From Xanthobacteraceae bacterium (GTDB lineage: Bacteria; Pseudomonadota; Alphaproteobacteria; Rhizobiales; Xanthobacteraceae), in contig JASHVN010000171.1 of NCBI GenBank assembly GCA_030044555.1, positions 1 through 37,821 of the forward strand: a stretch of DNA of 37,821 nt, read 5' to 3'. Under the pieces are notes generated by a model. The model made no database searches, was not told the origin of the DNA, and saw only the letters and a program-made list of their open reading frames with translations. Made by a program: the position numbers and the translations under genes. Shown here in pieces: positions 15,361-23,297 of the stretch (positions are counted from its first letter, which is position 1; each line of letters starts with the position of its first letter).

Positions 15361-17169
15361 TTAAGGCACTGCGAAGACTGTGAGTTGTCCGCCGAGCGCA
15401 GTGTAGTTGCTCAGCGCGGCATAGCCGCCGACTGCACCCAATCCGGCATGCGGATCGGTAAGACCGGCTGCCAGTCCGATCCCAGCCCAGCCGCCGACGC
15501 CGGACAACACCGCAACGTACTGCTTGCCGGCGTGCTGGTAGGTCATGACATTGCCGATGATGCCTGACGGGGTCTTGAATCTATATAGTTCCTTACCCGT
15601 CTTGGCGTCGACAGCCTTCAGATATCCTTCCAGCGTTCCGTAAAACACCACGCCGCCAGCAGTCGCCAGCGCGCCGGACCACACCGAAAACAGCTCGGGG
15701 TCAGACCAAACGATCTTGCCCGTCTTGTTGTCCCAAGCGATGAAGTTCCCCATGTTCGAGTCGCCGGGAGGCGGATACATGGAGAGAGTCGCCCCAACAT
15801 AGGGCTGTCCCGCGGTGTAGCTGACCCGGAACGGCTCGTAGTCCATGCAAACGTGGTTCGTCGGCACATAGAACAGCTGGGTTTCCGGCGAATAGGCCGC
15901 CGGCTGCTCGTCCTTCGATCCCAGTGCCGCCGGACAGATGCCGGTGGTGTTGTGATCCTCACCGCCAGCTTGCGTCGAGTATCGCTGCACAACTGTGGGC
16001 CGACCGTAATTCGGCGAGTTCTTGTCCATGTCGACGCCGCTGGTCCAATTGACCTTCGGATCGTACTTCGCAGCAACCAACAGCTCGCCCGTTGCACGGT
16101 CGAGAGTGTAGCCGAGACCGTTGCGATCAAAGTGGGTCAGGAGCTTGCGCTCGCGGCCATTGATGCGCTGATCGGTAAGGATCATCTCGTTGACACCATC
16201 GTAGTCCCATTCGTCATGGGGCGTCATCTGATAGACCCATTTGGCTACGCCAGTATCCGGATTGCGCGCCCAGATTGTCATCGACCATTTGTTATCGCCG
16301 GGGCGCTGCGTCGGATTCCAGGTCGAGGGATTGCCCGACCCGTAATAGACGAGGTTCAACTCGGGATCGTACGAAATCCAGCCCCAGGTGCAGCCGCCGC
16401 CGATCTTCCACTGATCGCCCTGCCAGGTCTTCAGGCTGGAATTTTGCCCCACCGGCTTACCGAATTGCGTCGTCTTCTCGGGATCCACCAGAATTTGATC
16501 ATCCGGCCCCTCCGAGTAGGCGCGCCAAGCCAGCTTGCCGGAATTGATGTCGTAGGCAGCAAGAGAACATTGCACTCCGAATTCGCCGCCAGAGGTGCCG
16601 ACCAGCACCTTGTCCTTGACGACAAGCGGCGCCGACGTGCCGGTCTGCCCCCTCTTCGGATCGCCGTTAACGGCGGTCCAGACTTCCTTGCCAGTTTTGG
16701 CGTCGAGCGCCACTAGTTTGTCGTCGGCTTGGTGCAGGAAAATCTTGCCGTCGGCGTAAGCGACACCGCGATTGACTGTGTCGCAACACATCACGGGGAT
16801 GACGCTCGGATCCTGCTTCGGCTCGTATTTCCACAGGATCTTGCCATCGTGACTCAAATCAAGCGCATAGACGATGTTAGGAAACGGCGTCGACAGGTAC
16901 ATGACGTCGCCCACGACAAGGGGAGCACCTTCATGCCCACGCAAAACGCCGGTCGAGAAGGTCCATGCGACCTGCAGCTTACCGACATTGCTGGTATTGA
17001 TCTGTTTGAGCTGTGAGTAACGGGTATTGGCGTAGTTCTTTGCTGGCATCACCCACTGATTTGGGTTCTGCGACATCTTCGCGAGATCGTCCTGGGCGTA
17101 GCTGAAGCCGCCGACAAGCACGGCCACCGCGCCCACCAAGGTACCTATTGTGAGAGACATGCAACGCAT
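15361..17169 (-). CDS. xoxF: XoxF, lanthanide-type PQQ-dependent methanol dehydrogenase
   Basis: A 602-residue periplasmic quinoprotein: signal peptide (1-25), then an eight-bladed tryptophan-docking propeller. Visible key features are the vicinal cysteines C128-C129 (MCCDTVNRG), the metal ligand Glu in SGGEFG (E196), Asn in GSGNPSTWN (N280), and [11 protein letters not shown] with the catalytic Asp at 322 and the extra Asp at 324. That extra Asp marks lanthanide-dependent XoxF; calcium-type MxaF has Ala there. It converts methanol to formaldehyde (or formate) and reduces XoxG. ATG at 17169 is preceded by GGGAGG at 7 nt. Odd: [14 protein letters not shown], where XoxF proteins I know usually read GVRG. 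It heads the operon xoxF-xoxG-xoxJ-CX3CW protein. Confidence 0.97.
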
Positions 17170-17271
17170 CGTGCGTCCTCCCTACGATGTTGTCATCGGG
17201 GGGTGCACCGACGTGAACAAGCCCAAAGCAGGCTTGACCTCGCGGCGCAAACCCGTGCCTCGGGAAGCATG

Positions 17272-17290
17272 TCCGGCAGCGTGTCACAGC
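17272..17290 (-). promoter_or_regulatory. 19-bp box upstream of xoxF, copy 1
   Basis: On the minus strand the box reads GCTGTGACACGCTGCCGGA and lies 103 nt upstream of the xoxF ATG. It is identical over all 19 bp to 21014-21032, upstream of the MetA-type transporter gene, in the same orientation. It contains GTGNCAC symmetry. Confidence 0.65.
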
Positions 17291-17444
17291 ATGAGCGCAG
17301 TGCGAATTTTTTTCTCGCTACCCGCGTACGCCTTCGAAGAAACGCCAACCCTCCCTAAACAGCGGGCGTCCTTGAAGCCGGAAACTTCATCGATACTATG
17401 CCCGCACCGGTTGGCGTGCAATAGCAATTCACGGCAGCGGTGCG

Positions 17445-17476
17445 TCCCAACATTTGCAGGGTGGAATGTGTTGGGA
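17445..17476. promoter_or_regulatory. Candidate operator dyad TCCCAACA-N16-TGTTGGGA
   Basis: A perfect 8-bp inverted repeat with a 16-nt spacer, 36 nt before the metallohydrolase ATG and far upstream of xoxF. The half-sites and spacer length equal those of the dyad between the kinase and pqqA (5129-5160). Confidence 0.5.
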
Positions 17477-17512
17477 GAGGTTCGCAACGCACAGCAAACA
17501 TGAATCGTACTC

Positions 17513-18472
17513 ATGAAAACAACACGTCGCCATTTTGTTAGATCAGTATCAATTTGTGTTTTGCTGATTGGAGTCCTCCTCTGCAGGTCAGCAATATTGA
17601 CCTATTCACAGGAGCGTCTGAAACCGCTGACCGTCGACCAGGTCGCGCCAGGCGTTTACGTCCACACCGGCGCGATCGCGCTGATGACGGCCGCCAACGA
17701 AGGCGGGATCGCCAATGTCGGATTCGTAGTCGGCAGCGACGGCGTCGCGGTCGTCGACACCGGAGGCAGCGTACGCGAGGGCCGCCGACTGCTCGCGGCA
17801 ATCCGCAAAATCACCAACAAACCAATCCAGTATGTGATAAATACCCACGGCCACCCCGATCATGTGTTCGGCAACGCGGCCTTCGGACCGCCAACCATCT
17901 TCATCGGCCATCATAATTTGCCGCGCGCATTAGCGGAGCGAGGCGCGTATTATCTTAAATCATTTCGCCCGAGCATGGACGGGCTTCTTGACGATGTGAA
18001 GATCGTCCCACCGACACTAACTGTCGCCGATCGGATGAAACTCGACCTCGGCCACCGCCCACTCACGCTGCAAGCGTGGCGCGCATCGCACAGCGACAGC
18101 GACCTCACTGTTCTCGATGAAGCGAGCGGAACGCTCTTCGCCGGAGATCTGGTCTTCGTGCGTCACATCCCGGTTATCGACGGGAGCATCCGCGGCTGGC
18201 TCAAGACAATTGACGATCTTGCGAGAATTCCCGCGCGACGGGTTATTCCCGGCCACGGCCCGGCACCGGCGCCTTGGCCTGCCGCACTAGCCGACGAAAG
18301 AGGTTACCTGCAGCGGCTAGAGAGCGATTGCCGCGACCTGATTAAGCGTGGAGTGCCGCTGTCGGTCGCGTCGCAGGTTGCCGGGTCATCCGAAAAATCC
18401 CGCTGGGAGTTATTTGAGGACTATAATGCACGCAATGCCACGGCTGCGTATTCCGAGCTGGAATGGGAATGA
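17513..18472 (+). CDS. Quinoprotein relay system metallo-beta-lactamase-fold hydrolase
   Basis: A 319-residue exported protein of the metallo-beta-lactamase fold. The N-terminus (TTRRHFVRS, then a hydrophobic stretch) looks like a signal sequence with a twin-arginine element. The zinc motif THGHPDH (H112, H114, D116, H117) is intact, with further ligands expected in [16 protein letters not shown] and IPGHGP. It fits the family named quinoprotein relay system zinc metallohydrolase 2. The substrate is unknown. It lies divergent to xoxF and 33 nt before the SoxYZ-like carrier, a pairing that recurs next to PQQ dehydrogenases and suggests a carrier-bound substrate. No clear Shine-Dalgarno sequence is seen. 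Confidence 0.88.
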
Positions 18473-18505
18473 GCACGCGCCCCGGCAAAAGCAGGAGGCA
18501 GATCG

Positions 18506-19321
18506 ATGATAGGGAAGAAATTACGGTGGTTGGGGCTGGCTCTGCTGGCGGGGGCAGTGGCATGGGGCGCGGTTCAAACTGCGCCGGTGGCGGCTGATGA
18601 TGATCCATGGCCGCAGATTGCGGCCGCTGCGTTCAACGGGCGGCCGCTTGCCGACGGCTCCGGACTCATCACCCTCGAGATGCCGGCGCGAGCCGAGGAC
18701 GCCGCAATTGTTCCGGTCACGATGCGCACGATCCTGCCCCGAGACGACACCCGCACGCTTCGATCGTTCACCCTCATTATTGACCAGAATCCTTCGCCGG
18801 TCGCCGCCACGTTCAAGGTCGGTGCCGGCGTGACGATGATTTCGACGCGGGTCCGTGTGAATTCCTATACTAACGTCCACGCGGTGGCCGAGCTCAGCGA
18901 TGGCAAGCTTTACGTCGTCAAGATTTATGTGAAGGCTTCCGGAGGCTGCTCGGCGCCCATGACAAGCAGCGCGGAAGACAAGACCACCTTGGGTCAAATG
19001 CGTCTTCGGCAATTCGTCATGGCGTCCGTGGGGCCGGCGGCCGCATCGCACGAAGCGCAGATCATGATTCGCCACCCTAACAATTCCGGCCTGCAGCGCG
19101 ATCAGGTTTCGCTGCTCTACATTCCGTTATTCATCGTCCGGAAATTGAGTGTGTGGCAAGGCGACCAGCTTCTCCTGGAGATGGAGGGCGGCATATCGAT
19201 CTCGGAAAATCCCAACATCCGGTTTTCCTATGTGGCGAACGGCGCCGCCATGTTCCGCGCAGAAGCTGATGATACTGAGGGCCATGTCTTCAAAGACGAG
19301 TGGCCGGTCCAGGCGATGTGA
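18506..19321 (+). CDS. Quinoprotein-dehydrogenase-associated SoxYZ-like carrier
   Basis: A 271-residue secreted protein with a signal peptide (1-30). The N-terminal half resembles SoxY (DPWPQIAAAAFNGRPL... ending in VKASGGCSAPM, Cys 148), and the C-terminal half resembles SoxZ (GQMRLRQFV... AQIMIRHPNNSGLQRD). In SoxYZ the swinging C-terminal Cys of SoxY carries sulfur intermediates; here the Cys is internal, at the junction of the two halves. This matches the single-chain SoxYZ-like carriers found with PQQ dehydrogenases. The start ATG at 18506 has AGGAGG upstream. No other sox genes are present, so sulfur oxidation is unlikely. What the Cys carries is unknown. Confidence 0.88.
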   Translation: MIGKKLRWLGLALLAGAVAWGAVQTAPVAADDDPWPQIAAAAFNGRPLADGSGLITLEMPARAEDAAIVPVTMRTILPRDDTRTLRSFTLIIDQNPSPVAATFKVGAGVTMISTRVRVNSYTNVHAVAELSDGKLYVVKIYVKASGGCSAPMTSSAEDKTTLGQMRLRQFVMASVGPAAASHEAQIMIRHPNNSGLQRDQVSLLYIPLFIVRKLSVWQGDQLLLEMEGGISISENPNIRFSYVANGAAMFRAEADDTEGHVFKDEWPVQAM

Positions 19322-19330
19322 AGGGCGACG

Positions 19331-19693
19331 TCAGAAACAGCGAACTTCCGCTTCCGCCTGCGCCCGGCGCAGATCCTCGACCGCCGAACGGGCGATGTCT
19401 GTCGAACGAAATTCGCCGCCGAGGTTTCCCGGCACCTGAGCCATGCTCAGGACGGTTTCCGCCGTTACATATCGATCATAGGGCAACAGCGAGGCGATGA
19501 CGTCGATTGAACAAGAACATTTCTGCAGCGAGACCTGCGATTCCCCATTGGCTTTCATGCAGCCAAAAACGTAGTCAACGCGCGCGGACGTCGGATAATC
19601 GTTGAGCTCGGCTGCTTGTGCCTTTGAATTTGTGCCGCAGGCAAGCAGCATAACGCCAAGCCCAAACCCAACCGATATTGTAACGCGAGGCAT
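19331..19693 (-). CDS. Small secreted cysteine-containing protein
   Basis: A 120-residue protein. The N-terminal signal is lipoprotein-like or Sec-type (VTISVGFGLGVMLLACGTNSKAQAAE; the LLACG stretch resembles a lipobox). The mature part has ARVDYVFGCMKANGE, LQKCSCSIDVIASLLPYDRYVTAETVLSMAQ and ends EVRCF, giving four cysteines that could make two disulfides. I recognise the pattern of short proteins found beside XoxF modules but know no function. The start MPRVTIS at 19693 has AGGGAA about 8 nt upstream; the TTG two codons earlier is less likely. It is convergent with the SoxYZ-like gene (9-nt gap). Confidence 0.78.
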   Translation of the reverse strand: MPRVTISVGFGLGVMLLACGTNSKAQAAELNDYPTSARVDYVFGCMKANGESQVSLQKCSCSIDVIASLLPYDRYVTAETVLSMAQVPGNLGGEFRSTDIARSAVEDLRRAQAEAEVRCF

Positions 19694-19757
19694 GATCAAA
19701 TTCCCTGCTGTGGCTCCTGCTCTGGAGCGATCTGCCCCCTTCTGTGGCCGAGTTTAA

Positions 19758-19791
19758 GCTAGCCGCGGCGCGTTGTCCTATGGCGGCTAGC
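19758..19791. terminator. Perfect 9-bp inverted repeat between two minus-strand genes
   Basis: GCTAGCCGC (19758-19766) and GCGGCTAGC (19783-19791) pair perfectly around a 16-nt loop. It is about 110 nt downstream of the transporter stop and 65 nt upstream of the small secreted protein's start. No T-run follows on the minus strand. It may be a terminator of the transporter transcript or an operator for the next gene. Confidence 0.45.
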
Positions 19792-19902
19792 CGTTACATT
19801 TCCGCTGACCGGCAGGCGCGTGAGCGCACGTTCGTCGGCCACTGGGCTCCGAACGACGAAAACACTCGGAAACCCGGCTGGTGATTTCAGCGTTTGATTG
19901 CC

Positions 19903-20832
19903 TTACTTGAGTGGCAACGCTTTGACCGGCATCGGCGCTTCTGCAGTCTGGACCGGCGGCGACCACAGCGGGATGACCAAGCGGAACCAACCGCGCGTGT
20001 CATATCCACCATAGTTCTCCTGCCACACGGTCTCGGTGAGATAGACCTGCAGGTCGACCGGACCGAAATTGTAGCCGACAAGGCCGCCGAGTGCGAACTG
20101 GCTCTGCCTCGCGTAACCGACGACCGGCGTAGAGAGGTCCCAGGAGCCGAACCCCACCGGGCCAATCTCCCATTTGTCGAACTTATGGGTGGCTGTTAGG
20201 TCCAGGTTCAGCCAGTCGGGATTGCAGCCGCCGGTGATCCCGGTTACCAAATTCAAGCACGGGGAAACCTGCCCCCTGCCGGGAACGAACTGGTCGAAGT
20301 CAATGCCGTAGGCGGCGGTAGCTGAGAGATTCCAACCATCTTTGGTATAGCTCAGCGCGAAGTCCTGTCTCAGTGAATTCGTGCTCCAGCCAAGCGGCGT
20401 GTCGACGTCGAAATAATTGCCGATCCCGTAGCTGAAGCTGAAGCCGTTGCCGAGGTCCCAGGCGATCATCCCCAGCAGAAGGGGATTGTACATGCTGTAA
20501 TTGTAGGAGGTGCCTACCGTCCCCGCTTCGAGTTCCGGCGCTGCGCCCACCGCTTCGACTCTGCCGCCCAAAATGGTCCACGGCGTCGACCAAATAAGCA
20601 CTGGGATATTCACGCCCAAGGCCGTGTTCGGCGAGGTGCTTCGGACACCCCAATCGAACGTATCGATGTAGTAAAGGCCCTGCGGCAACGGCGCCCCTAC
20701 TGCGAGTCCCACTGTCTCACCCGGCTGCATCACCGACCCGGCCAGCGCCGCCGGGGCGGCACTGCAGACCGATAGCACGCACGCTGCGCAAAACTTCGCC
20801 AGCTTACCTGCGATTCCCGCTGTGCAATTCAT
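19903..20832 (-). CDS. Outer-membrane transporter, MetA-pathway type (PF13557-like)
   Basis: A 309-residue exported protein with a signal peptide (about 1-31, ending AALA). The remainder alternates as beta-strands with aromatic girdles (GQVSPCLNLVTGITGGCNPDWLNLDLTATHKF, WEIGPVGFGSWDLS, QSQFALGGLVGYNFGPVDLQVYLTETVW) and ends in a barrel-type strand before a Pro/Ala tail. This fits the Phenol_MetA_deg outer-membrane family, often annotated simply as transporter. The start MNCTAG at 20832 has GGGGAGG 8 nt upstream. Its upstream region matches that of xoxF, so co-expression with methanol oxidation is likely. The cargo is unknown; passage of a small alcohol or a metal complex is possible. Confidence 0.85.
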   Translation of the reverse strand: MNCTAGIAGKLAKFCAACVLSVCSAAPAALAGSVMQPGETVGLAVGAPLPQGLYYIDTFDWGVRSTSPNTALGVNIPVLIWSTPWTILGGRVEAVGAAPELEAGTVGTSYNYSMYNPLLLGMIAWDLGNGFSFSYGIGNYFDVDTPLGWSTNSLRQDFALSYTKDGWNLSATAAYGIDFDQFVPGRGQVSPCLNLVTGITGGCNPDWLNLDLTATHKFDKWEIGPVGFGSWDLSTPVVGYARQSQFALGGLVGYNFGPVDLQVYLTETVWQENYGGYDTRGWFRLVIPLWSPPVQTAEAPMPVKALPLK

Positions 20833-21359
20833 CCGCTGATCCTCCCCAGGTTGCATCGACGGCGTTGCAGCTGTTCGCGGTACACTTGCCGGGCTTCATC
20901 TCCCTTTCGTTCGCATGCTCAAGGCCGGCCTGTACCGGCCCGTTCAAACAGCTCGGCAATAGCCAAACGTCTTTGCAACGTCGCGAACGTTAACAGTTTC
21001 AGTCGGGATAGCTTCCGGCAGCGTGTCACAGCCTGGGCGGGATCAGAGGGATCGCATTCCGGCTCCCTCGCCGATCCCCGACTTCCGAAAGCACGTCAGC
21101 CTTTCCCGCGACCGACGCCCTTTGAAGCCTGGAAGCTTAGAAACAGTTTATGCTTGGTCCACTTGCATGTCGTCGCGTATTTGAACGGATGTACTTCTTT
21201 CTTCGCTGGTGTGACTAAAATGTCACCAAAAAGTTGCATTCCACACATTCTACAAGCAAAAACAAATGTTTCCGGGGTGCCAAATCAGCCATTCGGTTGT
21301 GGAACAAATCCCTGGAGGGGATGTGCGGCGGGTGGCAGATACAGCGCCCGTCCGCACTG
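20833..21359. promoter_or_regulatory. Long upstream region of the transporter gene
   Basis: No gene is supported in these 527 bases. From the transporter outward there is a leader hairpin GGCCGG-6 nt-CCGGCC (20923-20940), the shared 19-bp box (21014-21032), a CTTCCGAAAG near-palindrome (21082-21091), and the reverse complement of GGCTTCAAAGGGCG (about 21115-21128). A more AT-rich part (21160-21290) carries GTGAC-TAAAAT-GTCAC (21211-21226). The last 70 bases before 21360 are the 3' flank of folP. Confidence 0.55.
21014..21032 (-). promoter_or_regulatory. 19-bp box upstream of the transporter gene, copy 2
   Basis: Identical to the box upstream of xoxF (17272-17290) and in the same orientation, 182 nt before the transporter ATG. 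Flanking blocks are also similar. Confidence 0.65.
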
Positions 21360-22208
21360 TCAGCAGATCGGCGCTTGGCTGCCGCACTTGCGGATCGTGT
21401 CCAGCACCTTAAACGCGCTGATATGCTCGGCGACATCATGGACCCTGAAGATCGACGCGCCGCACATGGCCGCCGCAAGATTCGCCGCAACGGTACCGAT
21501 CAATTGTCCTTCGATGCCGCCCTTGACCAGCGATCCCAGAAACGTCTTGCGCGAGACCCCGACCATAATCGGACAGCCAAAGTCGGCAAGCTCGCCGAGT
21601 CGGGCGATTACTTCGACATTCTGGCGAGCGGTCTTGCCGAAGGCAATTCCAGGATCGAGGATGATGCGCGAGCGTGGAATTCCCGCAATGTTGGCAAGTT
21701 CCAGAGAACGAGCAAAAAACCGCCTGATCTCGCTAATGATGTCCAGCGATGCGTCCTTCTCGGCTCGATTGTGCATGATCACCACTGCGGCCCGGCCGCC
21801 GGCAACTGCGTCGGCCATGGCAGGATCCTTCTGTAAGCCCCAGACGTCATTCACCAGGATAGCACCCCCCTCGATCGCACGCGCAGCAACGCTGGCTTTA
21901 TAAGTATCGATCGACAGCGGGACTTCGAGCTTCGCCGCCAGTTCGGTCAATGTCGCTTCGACGCGTGAAAGCTCTTCGGCCTCGGTGACGGGAGCGGCGC
22001 CAGGCCGGGTCGACTCGCCGCCGACGTCGATGATATCGCAGCCCGCGCCCGCCATCGCAGCCGCATGCGCTAACGCGGCTTCCGTGGCAACAAAACGTCC
22101 GCCGTCGGAAAACGAATCCGGCGTCAGGTTGAGAATTCCCATAACCAGCAGACGGCTTCCAATTTTTTCAAGAAACGCGTCACGCCGTGCGCACTGCTCC
22201 GCGCGCAT
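21360..22208 (-). CDS. folP: Dihydropteroate synthase
   Basis: A 282-residue DHPS with all family signatures: LLVMGILNLTPDSFSDGGRF (pterin diphosphate site), DIIDVGGESTRPGA, PLSIDTYKASVA, ILVNDVWG, RIILDPGIAFGK and the C-terminal VGVSRKTFLG. It condenses the pterin diphosphate with p-aminobenzoate for folate. Because it closes the fhc operon it could alternatively serve H4MPT, but the MJ0107-type protein at 6022 is the better candidate for that. The start MRAEQCARRD at 22208 was chosen by homology; the longer frame to 22319 lies inside the upstream small gene. Its start overlaps that gene by 29 nt. Confidence 0.93.
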   Translation of the reverse strand: MRAEQCARRDAFLEKIGSRLLVMGILNLTPDSFSDGGRFVATEAALAHAAAMAGAGCDIIDVGGESTRPGAAPVTEAEELSRVEATLTELAAKLEVPLSIDTYKASVAARAIEGGAILVNDVWGLQKDPAMADAVAGGRAAVVIMHNRAEKDASLDIISEIRRFFARSLELANIAGIPRSRIILDPGIAFGKTARQNVEVIARLGELADFGCPIMVGVSRKTFLGSLVKGGIEGQLIGTVAANLAAAMCGASIFRVHDVAEHISAFKVLDTIRKCGSQAPIC

Positions 22209-22416
22209 TGGCTCTGTCTTTCTTCCGTGGGAATTCGCAGTGGTATCGTTTGATCGTCCAATTCGGGTGCTCGCCAATCCACTGCGCGAGATAAGGTTGA
22301 GCTCCCTGCACGCACTCACGCAGCGAGCCGTGCCAGAAATACTCGATTCGCTGCTCCTCGCATTGATTAGGGTGCGACAGTGCGCAAACGGTAAATACGA
22401 TGGCGACTATGTCCAT
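22180..22416 (-). CDS. Small conserved hypothetical protein overlapping folP
   Basis: A 78-residue protein: MDIVAIVFTVCALSHPNQCEEQRIEYFW..., then ECVQGAQPYLAQWIGEHPNWTIKRYHC. The pattern of C-A-L near the N-terminus, a cysteine pair, QPxLAxW and a late HPxWxIKRxxC matches short alphaproteobacterial proteins I have seen annotated only as hypothetical. The N-terminal hydrophobic stretch is short, so membrane or export status is unclear. It lies between fhcC and folP in the same direction and overlaps folP by 29 nt, implying co-translation. Confidence 0.65.
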   Translation of the reverse strand: MDIVAIVFTVCALSHPNQCEEQRIEYFWHGSLRECVQGAQPYLAQWIGEHPNWTIKRYHCEFPRKKDRANARGAVRTA

Positions 22417-22466: not shown

Positions 22467-23297
22467 TTAGGTATCTGACAAGAAACTTGCACCATTTCTG
22501 ACAAAAATTTCGCCTTTGCCCAGTATCGCCATATCCCCGGCAAGCCGTCTGAGCGGTTGACGCATGAGCTTAGCGGCGCGCTTACTGTGGGATTCGACCA
22601 TCGCTGCCATGAATCGATTGCCGAGGAGCTGGTGCACGCCGCAATCGACGAATGTCGGCGATAATGCACCGCAGCCGCCGAGAAATATGGTGCCGCGCTT
22701 GAGAAGATATCCAGGAAGCCGTCCGGCCCTGCCCAGCACGACCACCGTACCGGCAATCATCCTGCCGCCGGCATAAGGTCCGGCATCACCTTCGATGATG
22801 ATCGTGCCGCGCCGCATGCGATCACCGGCGCGTTCGCCGGCGTCGCCGCGAACAACGACGATTCCGCCGCGCGTTCCACTCATCTCGCCCGGCAGCGGCG
22901 CGCCGAGCCGATCGCCGGCCGCGCCCGTTATCTGAAAGACGCCGGACTTCATGCCGGAAGCGGCCCACGGCCCCGCATTGCCCCGCACCGTAAGCCGGCC
23001 GCCGCTCATCAGCCGGCCGGCTTGGATACCAACATCGCCCTCGACCAAAAGCTCACCACCCGCCATCTCGCGGCCTACATAATCGAAACGCTCACCGCCG
23101 CCCTCGATGCAAATTTGCTCGACGTCTCCCATGCGCAACCGAAACACATCACCGACTTCGATACGATGGCGCGTCGTCTGCAATTCAAGACGTTCGATCT
23201 CGCGCACCGATTTGCCGGCTAAGCGATGCGACACCAGCGGCGACAAATCGAGCCGCTGGCGAGGATTCTCTCGGAGCGTGAAGATCAGGCGTGTCAC
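22467..23297 (-). CDS. fhcC: FhcC, formyltransferase/hydrolase complex subunit C
   Basis: A 276-residue protein with repeated G-x-x-x-G-x-x-x-x-G turns of a right-handed beta-helix (GGELLVEGDVGIQAGRLMSGG, GGIVVVRGDAGERAGDRMRRG, GTIIIEGDAGPYAGGRMIAG) and the C-terminal GGCGALSPTFVDCGVHQLLG. It is homologous to FwdC/FmdC of methanogens. In methylotrophs FhcABCD moves the formyl group from H4MPT to methanofuran and hydrolyses it to formate. The start is GTG at 23297, overlapping the fhcD stop as GTGA. Confidence 0.95.
   Translation of the reverse strand: MTRLIFTLRENPRQRLDLSPLVSHRLAGKSVREIERLELQTTRHRIEVGDVFRLRMGDVEQICIEGGGERFDYVGREMAGGELLVEGDVGIQAGRLMSGGRLTVRGNAGPWAASGMKSGVFQITGAAGDRLGAPLPGEMSGTRGGIVVVRGDAGERAGDRMRRGTIIIEGDAGPYAGGRMIAGTVVVLGRAGRLPGYLLKRGTIFLGGCGALSPTFVDCGVHQLLGNRFMAAMVESHSKRAAKLMRQPLRRLAGDMAILGKGEIFVRNGASFLSDT

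Follow-up and report, generated by a model that had tools for sequence, protein, structure and literature searches.

A conserved leader RNA, probably riboswitch-like, shared by xoxF and an outer-membrane channel gene in part of the Hyphomicrobiales

What do a methanol dehydrogenase gene and a distant outer-membrane channel gene have in common when their upstream regions resemble each other block by block? This question is raised by a 37,821-nucleotide stretch of DNA from a Xanthobacteraceae bacterium (contig JASHVN010000171.1 of assembly GCA_030044555.1, hereafter the window), where xoxF (15361-17169) and the channel gene (19903-20832) are both encoded on the minus strand. The xoxF product was assigned as a lanthanide-type methanol dehydrogenase dependent on pyrroloquinoline quinone (PQQ) by its match to PF01011 and by its best solved relatives, 6oc5/6oc6 (1061.7 bits) and the XoxF structure 6dam (909.5 bits), which scored above other methanol dehydrogenase entries. 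The channel gene, whose start was taken as the ATG at 20832 after GGGGAGGA, encodes a predicted beta-barrel whose orthologues match PF13557. As described below, the shared region is almost certainly a structured leader RNA as such, and comparison of its copies indicates that it probably serves as a cis-regulatory, signal-responsive (riboswitch-like) leader of the xoxF and channel-gene mRNAs, the responsiveness being putative.

The first-pass annotation of the window had described an identical 19-bp box upstream of both genes, followed in the same order by palindrome-like blocks and by distal blocks, and had read the whole as a shared promoter with multiple regulator sites and a new DNA operator set. 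The blocks themselves were found where it had placed them. The box is exact at 17272-17290 and 21014-21032, and exact 19-mer repeats are expected about 0.005 times in 37.8 kb under a uniform model. When up to three mismatches were tolerated, four places were found in the 4.9-Mb source assembly (estimated completeness 75.5%), of which those in the window are the only exact ones; the two 3-mismatch places are at chance level, a reversed control pattern also giving four. On the xoxF side CTTCGAAG lies at 17332-17339, 41 nt from the box, and on the channel side CTTCCGAAAG (minus strand CTTTCGGAAG) lies at 21082-21091, 49 nt from it, with the distal GGCTTCAA blocks at 17372-17379 and 21122-21129. 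Similarity between the blocks, which had also been claimed, is partial, the structure being kept more than the letters. A gapped letter pattern run across the same genome gave no matches and missed even the two known copies, being too strict.

The reading of these blocks as operators gave way to a different one. They form parts of an element in which three helices, P1, P2 and P3, meet at near-invariant single-stranded junctions (UUCAA, UUCGnAG and GUGACACG): what had looked like a CTTCGAAG palindrome corresponds to the UUCGnAG junction at the base of P3, and the 19-bp box runs from the 3' strand of P3 through the GUGACACG junction into the 3' strand of P1, most of which it covers. Directly before P1, at a fixed place, 58 of 63 aligned copies carry the pattern TTG-N3, 16-18 nt, TA-N3-T, whereas none of 61 control offsets shows it in more than one copy. 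Five copies lack it at the fixed place: the channel-gene copies L002 and L047, copy L116 and the two Methylocella copies. The window xoxF promoter reads TTGCAC-17-TAGTAT, with the -35 box at 17416-17421 and the -10 box at 17393-17398 (minus strand, spacer 17 nt), and a stricter sigma-70 consensus scan of the two window leaders called no promoter. A sigma-70-like promoter is thus predicted to start the transcript at the foot of P1, and the blocks, which lie 3' of it and covary as RNA, are helices and junctions of one RNA; the set of regulator sites that had been proposed is not supported.

Evidence for the fold came from comparison of copies. The P1 strands at the two ends of the element change together (UUUCCGGC/GCCGGAAA, CUUCGGC/GCCGAAG, CUUCAGC/GCUGAAG, CUUUCGAC/GUCGGAAG). 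In a structure-blind MAFFT alignment of 31 copies picked by letter patterns, paired cells amounted to 87.6%, compared with 76.1% after shuffling, and covariation reached 0.435, compared with 0.233 in shuffled alignments (0 of 500 shuffles reached the observed value) and at most 0.157 when the structure was slid, a control that leans towards the drawn structure because the analyst drew it after inspecting the sequences. From the same alignment RNAalifold, with no structure supplied, recovered P1, P2 and P3, with compensatory changes in 18 of 24 pairs. Covariance model R1 was built from element copies, and its alignment (64 source loci giving 63 matches and 62 distinct rows, L129 falling under the threshold) showed 91.9% of cells paired against 71.4% when shuffled, both-side changes in 18 of 19 pairs, and a covariation of 0.636 against at most 0.154 when slid; this alignment was fitted to the structure, and its pairing figures therefore lean towards it. 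The paired columns of the 63 copies hold 138 G-U or U-G cells and 13 A-C or C-A cells, an excess to be expected when selection acts at the level of this strand's RNA, not of a DNA site. The comparison thus shows the predicted fold, its strand, its gene association and its position behind the promoter, and the claim for an RNA rests on such comparative evidence, not on single-sequence folding.

R1 matches exactly two places in the window, both on the minus strand. The xoxF copy, including its 3' tail, spans 17244-17388 (113.1 bits, E 7.8e-29 within the window). Its covarying helix P1 is formed by GUUUCCGGC (17377-17385) and GCCGGACAU (17269-17277), the first six letters of the latter closing the 19-bp box; the covarying strands of P2 (17362-17368 and 17343-17349) enclose the loop GGGAGG (17350-17355). 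Near-invariant alignment columns mark the junction UUCGAAG with the P3 5' strand (17330-17338), which overlaps the CTTCGAAG palindrome, and the 31-copy alignment places the P3 3' strand GCU and the junction GUGACACG within the box (17280-17290). Pairing tests identified the tail CUUCCC (17262-17267), which is predicted to pair with the P2 loop as a pseudoknot strand or may pair with the xoxF Shine-Dalgarno sequence AGGGAGGA (17176-17183). The second copy, the channel-gene leader, lies at 20986-21139 (87.9 bits, E 3.3e-22). Sequence and fold give its P1 5' strand AGCUUCC(A)GGC (21127-21137), its P2 strands GCGUCGGUC (21110-21118) and GGCUGACGU (21093-21101) and its P1 3' strand GCCGGAAGCU (21010-21019); the P3 3' strand with the GUGACACG junction was located from the sequence at 21022-21033, and the tail AUCCCG (21004-21009) is the predicted partner of CGGGA in the P2 loop. 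Upstream of it stands a -10-like TAAACT (21145-21150) with no TTG -35. Since all three confident channel-gene copies (window 21145-21175, L047 and L195; two by count, the third by eye) lack a TTG -35 at the usual place, xoxF and the channel gene may start transcription under different control despite having the RNA in common. In L195 (genome G022, contig 54, 1501-1641, minus strand), P3 holds a second GUGACAC opposite its complement GUGUCAC, which looks like a partial duplication of the core within the hairpin.

No known family accounted for the element. Rfam 15 (4227 families) gave no match over it at 10 loci searched at E ≤5, no family over it at nine loci searched at gathering scores, and none over it in window positions 17100-21300 at E ≤10, where five chance-level matches fell elsewhere. 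A sub-threshold istR match in L036 (1570-1666) lay far from the element and was rejected. Neither an xoxF leader RNA nor a "lanthanide riboswitch" was described in the literature searched. Relative to Rfam 15 and the literature searched, the element is a new class of riboswitch-like leader.

Distribution was first assessed by searching the box, with up to two mismatches, in 198 genomes of the same family, 35 of which matched. Many 2-mismatch places had no nearby xoxF; places with no or one mismatch precede xoxF, or a channel orthologue in genome G063, and mostly have the other blocks. L056 has a 1-mismatch box with no surrounding element, L036, L043 and L063 have the element with the contig ending before the gene, and a second exact box of G197, before xoxF, has its blocks partly masked by a run of N. 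With R1 at an E cut-off of 0.001, 33 of 397 genomes of the order matched, and in all 33 the element stands directly upstream of xoxF, one per genome, the window genome having the additional channel copy. The class and phylum samples, which overlap, gave 2 of 385 and 11 of 398 genomes at a cut-off of 0.01, all from the same order. Samples of more than 40 genomes (order, class, phylum and Methylobacterium family) were scored with strict filters, by which weak matches are lost, and in the order, class and phylum samples no confident match at these cut-offs lay upstream of genes other than xoxF or the channel gene.

Inspection by letter of 80 named XoxF loci showed the blocks in Xanthobacter, Ancylobacter, Labrys, Methylocella, Methylopila, Limobrevibacterium and several metagenome-assembled genomes; they recur before xoxF orthologues of other genera. 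R1 matched 22 of these loci at E ≤0.01, all just upstream of xoxF, and left 58 unmatched; no Bradyrhizobium locus among the 80 matches at this value. One copy, from Limobrevibacterium gyesilva (L102), is outside the order by name and was perhaps gained by transfer. Sixteen of 25 chosen genomes matched at E ≤0.5, and at E ≤2.1e-8 there were 17 matches in 15 genomes: 12 before xoxF, three at contig ends and two (G022 and G063) before orthologues of the window channel gene (59 and 57% identical). As a consequence of the last two, the element is found on both genes in three genera (those of the window genome, G022 and G063), and to this extent the first-pass reading of the region as regulatory, tying the transporter to xoxF, was supported. 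A close channel gene was found among 61 relatives in the window genome and G022 only, five others having 36-43% identity. Weak matches in L193, L196 and L197 (E 0.07-0.26) lie in apparent coding stretches and were set aside. L198 (G063 contig 307, 1501-1646, minus strand; E 0.44), in which P1 is kept and the junction lost, was retained as a candidate because it stands before another PF13557 gene, and is possibly a degenerate copy.

How might such a leader act on its gene? The P2 loop (GGGA or GGGAGG) is complementary to a (U)UCCC strand that follows P1 directly. Summed loop-tail pairing was 792.5, compared with 707.7 ± 17.4 when tails were swapped among copies (highest of 300 values, 770) and 593.8 ± 20.5 when tail letters were shuffled; the partners change together (GGGAU/AUCCC, UGGGGAU/AUCCCCA, CGGGGA/UCCCCG), and a run of at least five pairs is present in 49 of 63 copies. 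Six pseudoknot pairs are possible, four of which were counted in the 31-copy test with 82.1% of cells paired. A P2 loop-tail pseudoknot is therefore supported, by covariation, in most but not all copies. CsrA-like control through the GGA of the loop was considered, but the loop seems better explained by its covariation with the tail.

Where it could be read, with a loose start pattern that gives wrong starts in several rows, xoxF begins about 60-105 nt past the P1 3' strand, behind a Shine-Dalgarno sequence of GGAGG type; in the window this distance is 99 nt for xoxF and 177 nt for the channel gene. Openness of the Shine-Dalgarno sequence was predicted with the aptamer helices enforced and a stricter start pattern in 53 of the 63 leaders (nine had no UCC tail strand and one was too short); in the Methylopila-like copies the tail strand taken was a GUCC, not a proven pseudoknot strand. 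Blocking the tail strand raised predicted openness from 0.35 to 0.52, compared with 0.37 when other 6-nt strands were blocked, and the value with the tail blocked was above that of the control strands in 45 of the 53 leaders and below it in five. Neither window leader showed an intrinsic terminator.

Because blocking the tail raises predicted openness, we propose that the state with the pseudoknot formed is the one with the Shine-Dalgarno sequence free, that is, ON. The transcript would begin at the foot of P1 from the sigma-70-like promoter, and the junction letters UUCAA, UUCGnAG and GUGACACG would likely be the sensing core. While this core is unstabilised, the UUCCC strand could pair with the GGGAGG Shine-Dalgarno sequence or with nearby leader, and translation would be damped; once the signal is bound, the pseudoknot would capture the UUCCC strand and translation would be on. 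The ON polarity through the pseudoknot comes from an energy model applied to related sequences, and we regard it as evenly poised between right and wrong.

Variant forms of the element were also found. Several Methylobacterium xoxF leaders carry a shorter form, with P1 and P2 at the same place behind the promoter, a longer pseudoknot (for example CAGGGAUG/CAUCCCUG) and no GUGACACG junction. Their R1 scores are weak (11-25 bits), so their kinship with the element is argued from position and fold and from L167, a full-form copy in the same genus as the short-form copy L179. A model of the short form matched 6 of 149 genomes of that family, all of one genus and each upstream of xoxF. Beside the Shine-Dalgarno sequence of the short form, a hairpin of approximately CAGRNC...GNYYUG varies on both sides, by eye, with the pairs AUC/GAU, GUC/GAC, ACC/GGU and GCC/GGC and a mismatch in L136. 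A further, pseudoknot-free form, with P2 lacking the GGGA loop and no UCC tail, was observed in L115, L117, L118, L119 and L122 (Ancylobacter) and in L150.

Several observations weigh against a signal-responsive leader RNA. Folded alone, the window xoxF element was no more stable than its shuffles (z 0.68) and its minimum-energy fold differed from the consensus, whereas the channel copy folded close to the consensus (z -2.19). On an earlier, rougher alignment of 29 copies RNAalifold returned P1 and part of P3 and missed P2, and the shuffles, permutations and Wilcoxon test treat the copies as independent, ignoring their relatedness. Fourteen of the 63 copies (the Ancylobacter group, Methylocella and Methylopila-like) have no loop-tail run of at least five pairs, and nine (the Ancylobacter group, Methylocella and Limobrevibacterium) have no UCC tail strand in the stretch searched; an earlier, cruder openness test was less clear, with 36 of 63 leaders up and 14 down, and the GUGACACG junction is missing from the Methylobacterium short form. 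There is also the physiology of Methylocella silvestris BL2, for which PMC9291206 reports that xoxF5 mRNA rises 180-fold with lanthanide, that deletion of xoxF5 abolishes the lanthanide response, explained there by a role of XoxF5 or by a suppressor, and that MxaY/MxaB is favoured as lanthanide-linked control. Because this response is at the mRNA level and is lost in the deletion, there is probably control at the level of transcription as well, and the RNA is unlikely to do all of the switching. The same paper reports that a gfp fusion with 619 bp of upstream DNA responds 10-fold to lanthanide. The leader would lie within these 619 bp if BL2 shares the element with Methylocella strain TVC (L127), whose copy has no pseudoknot tail.

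As for the signal, the near-invariance of the junction letters suggests the junction as binding core, and the target genes suggest a link with methanol or lanthanide physiology. Among candidate ligands a lanthanide is the most interesting: Ln3+, alone or chelator-bound, would organise the P1-P2-P3 junction, the pseudoknot would form, the Shine-Dalgarno sequence would be freed, and the lanthanide-dependent methanol dehydrogenase and the channel would be made. We put this forward tentatively, as an attractive idea well short of a probable one; if true, it would be, to our knowledge, the first riboswitch for f-block elements. Another ligand linked to methanol (PQQ, a formaldehyde adduct, a C1-pterin or calcium) would still be a case of a riboswitch-like leader, and is itself rather doubtful: it would fit targets that are mostly xoxF and otherwise a COG4313-type channel, yet confident matches under the strict filters precede only xoxF or the channel gene, and thus no PQQ-synthesis or C1-pterin gene was seen as a target.

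The leader RNA could also be real and be read by a protein, a small RNA, or ribosome or Rho traffic instead of a small molecule or metal, a reading that we take seriously while holding it to be fairly unlikely. It would fit the narrow phylogenetic range and the two kinds of target gene seen, and PMC9291206 describes xoxF regulation as requiring XoxF itself and probably involving a sensor kinase. Against it, near-invariant junction letters in a multi-helix core resemble an aptamer. No candidate reader protein or small RNA is known to us, no search for one having been made. Less likely still, the element could act constitutively, stabilising the mRNA at its 5' end or enhancing translation with no switching, as the prediction that the transcript starts with P1 might suggest; the pseudoknot strand, linked in the model to Shine-Dalgarno openness, is nevertheless kept in most copies. 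That the two genes share a DNA promoter region with several operator sites for proteins is very improbable. Exact identity over 19 bp, conserved block order and a two-component control of xoxF suspected in Methylocella (PMC9291206) speak for it; against it, the blocks stand 3' of the conserved promoter and vary together as an RNA fold would, with G-U greatly exceeding A-C, and the channel copies do not share the TTG -35. Some other explanation is equally improbable.

If the element is a riboswitch-like leader, its nearest likeness is to riboswitches built as pseudoknot and translational platforms, such as the cobalamin class: it shares with them a multi-helix junction with a conserved single-stranded core, a predicted loop-tail pseudoknot, a Shine-Dalgarno sequence downstream and a location ahead of a metabolic gene, in its 5' leader, but it has its own consensus and no Rfam 15 match. 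Like the metal-ion riboswitches (Mn yybP-ykoY, NiCo, Li and Na), it might respond to a metal and govern an enzyme that needs one, and it matches none of their Rfam families. The MxaYB, MxbDM and MxcQE systems act on the same or sister methanol dehydrogenase genes, the last two being mentioned in this role in PMC5784242; these are protein control at the promoter, whereas the element is an RNA in the transcribed leader, and the two may coexist. Lanthanide sensing and the switch between calcium- and lanthanide-dependent methanol dehydrogenases are framed in PMC9291206 around sensor kinases and XoxF itself. The conserved xoxF leader in part of the Hyphomicrobiales adds a possible layer of control after transcription start, links an outer-membrane channel to the xoxF system, is accessible in culturable genera (Xanthobacter, Ancylobacter, Labrys, Methylocella, Methylopila and Methylobacterium) and could yield a lanthanide or C1 biosensor.

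The channel protein was analyzed further. The window protein gave no Pfam match up to E 10, unlike its orthologues (58 and 61% identical), which match PF13557 at 1e-18 and 1.5e-23. An AlphaFold2 model built with seven sequences (mean pLDDT 63.2, a low confidence) is a barrel whose best match in the Protein Data Bank (PDB) is the COG4313 channel 4rl8 (E 2.4e-6, TM 0.57). Its orthologues and its predicted fold make it a candidate member of the COG4313/PF13557 channels, from which it differs in giving no Pfam match of its own.

Another conserved block was seen instead of the RNA element in 21 of the leaders L066-L101, from Bradyrhizobium and one Rhodopseudomonas: approximately TTCGCT..GAGCAAAC..TTC.CTCTTGGGCAAGTTTCC, about 150-230 nt before xoxF. 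Covariation in 3 of 18 pairs across these 21 loci is not convincing as RNA, and the block is possibly a set of DNA sites or another RNA. Divergent from xoxF in the window are a gene of the metallo-beta-lactamase fold (17513-18472, plus strand) and a SoxY-SoxZ fusion gene (18506-19321, plus strand), and relatives of one or both adjoin xoxF in many other loci. Beside the channel gene, Pfam identified a pterin-binding-enzyme gene (21360-22319, minus strand) and a gene with a GXGXG motif (22467-23297, minus strand), the latter motif being reminiscent of C1 enzymes of the formylmethanofuran type.

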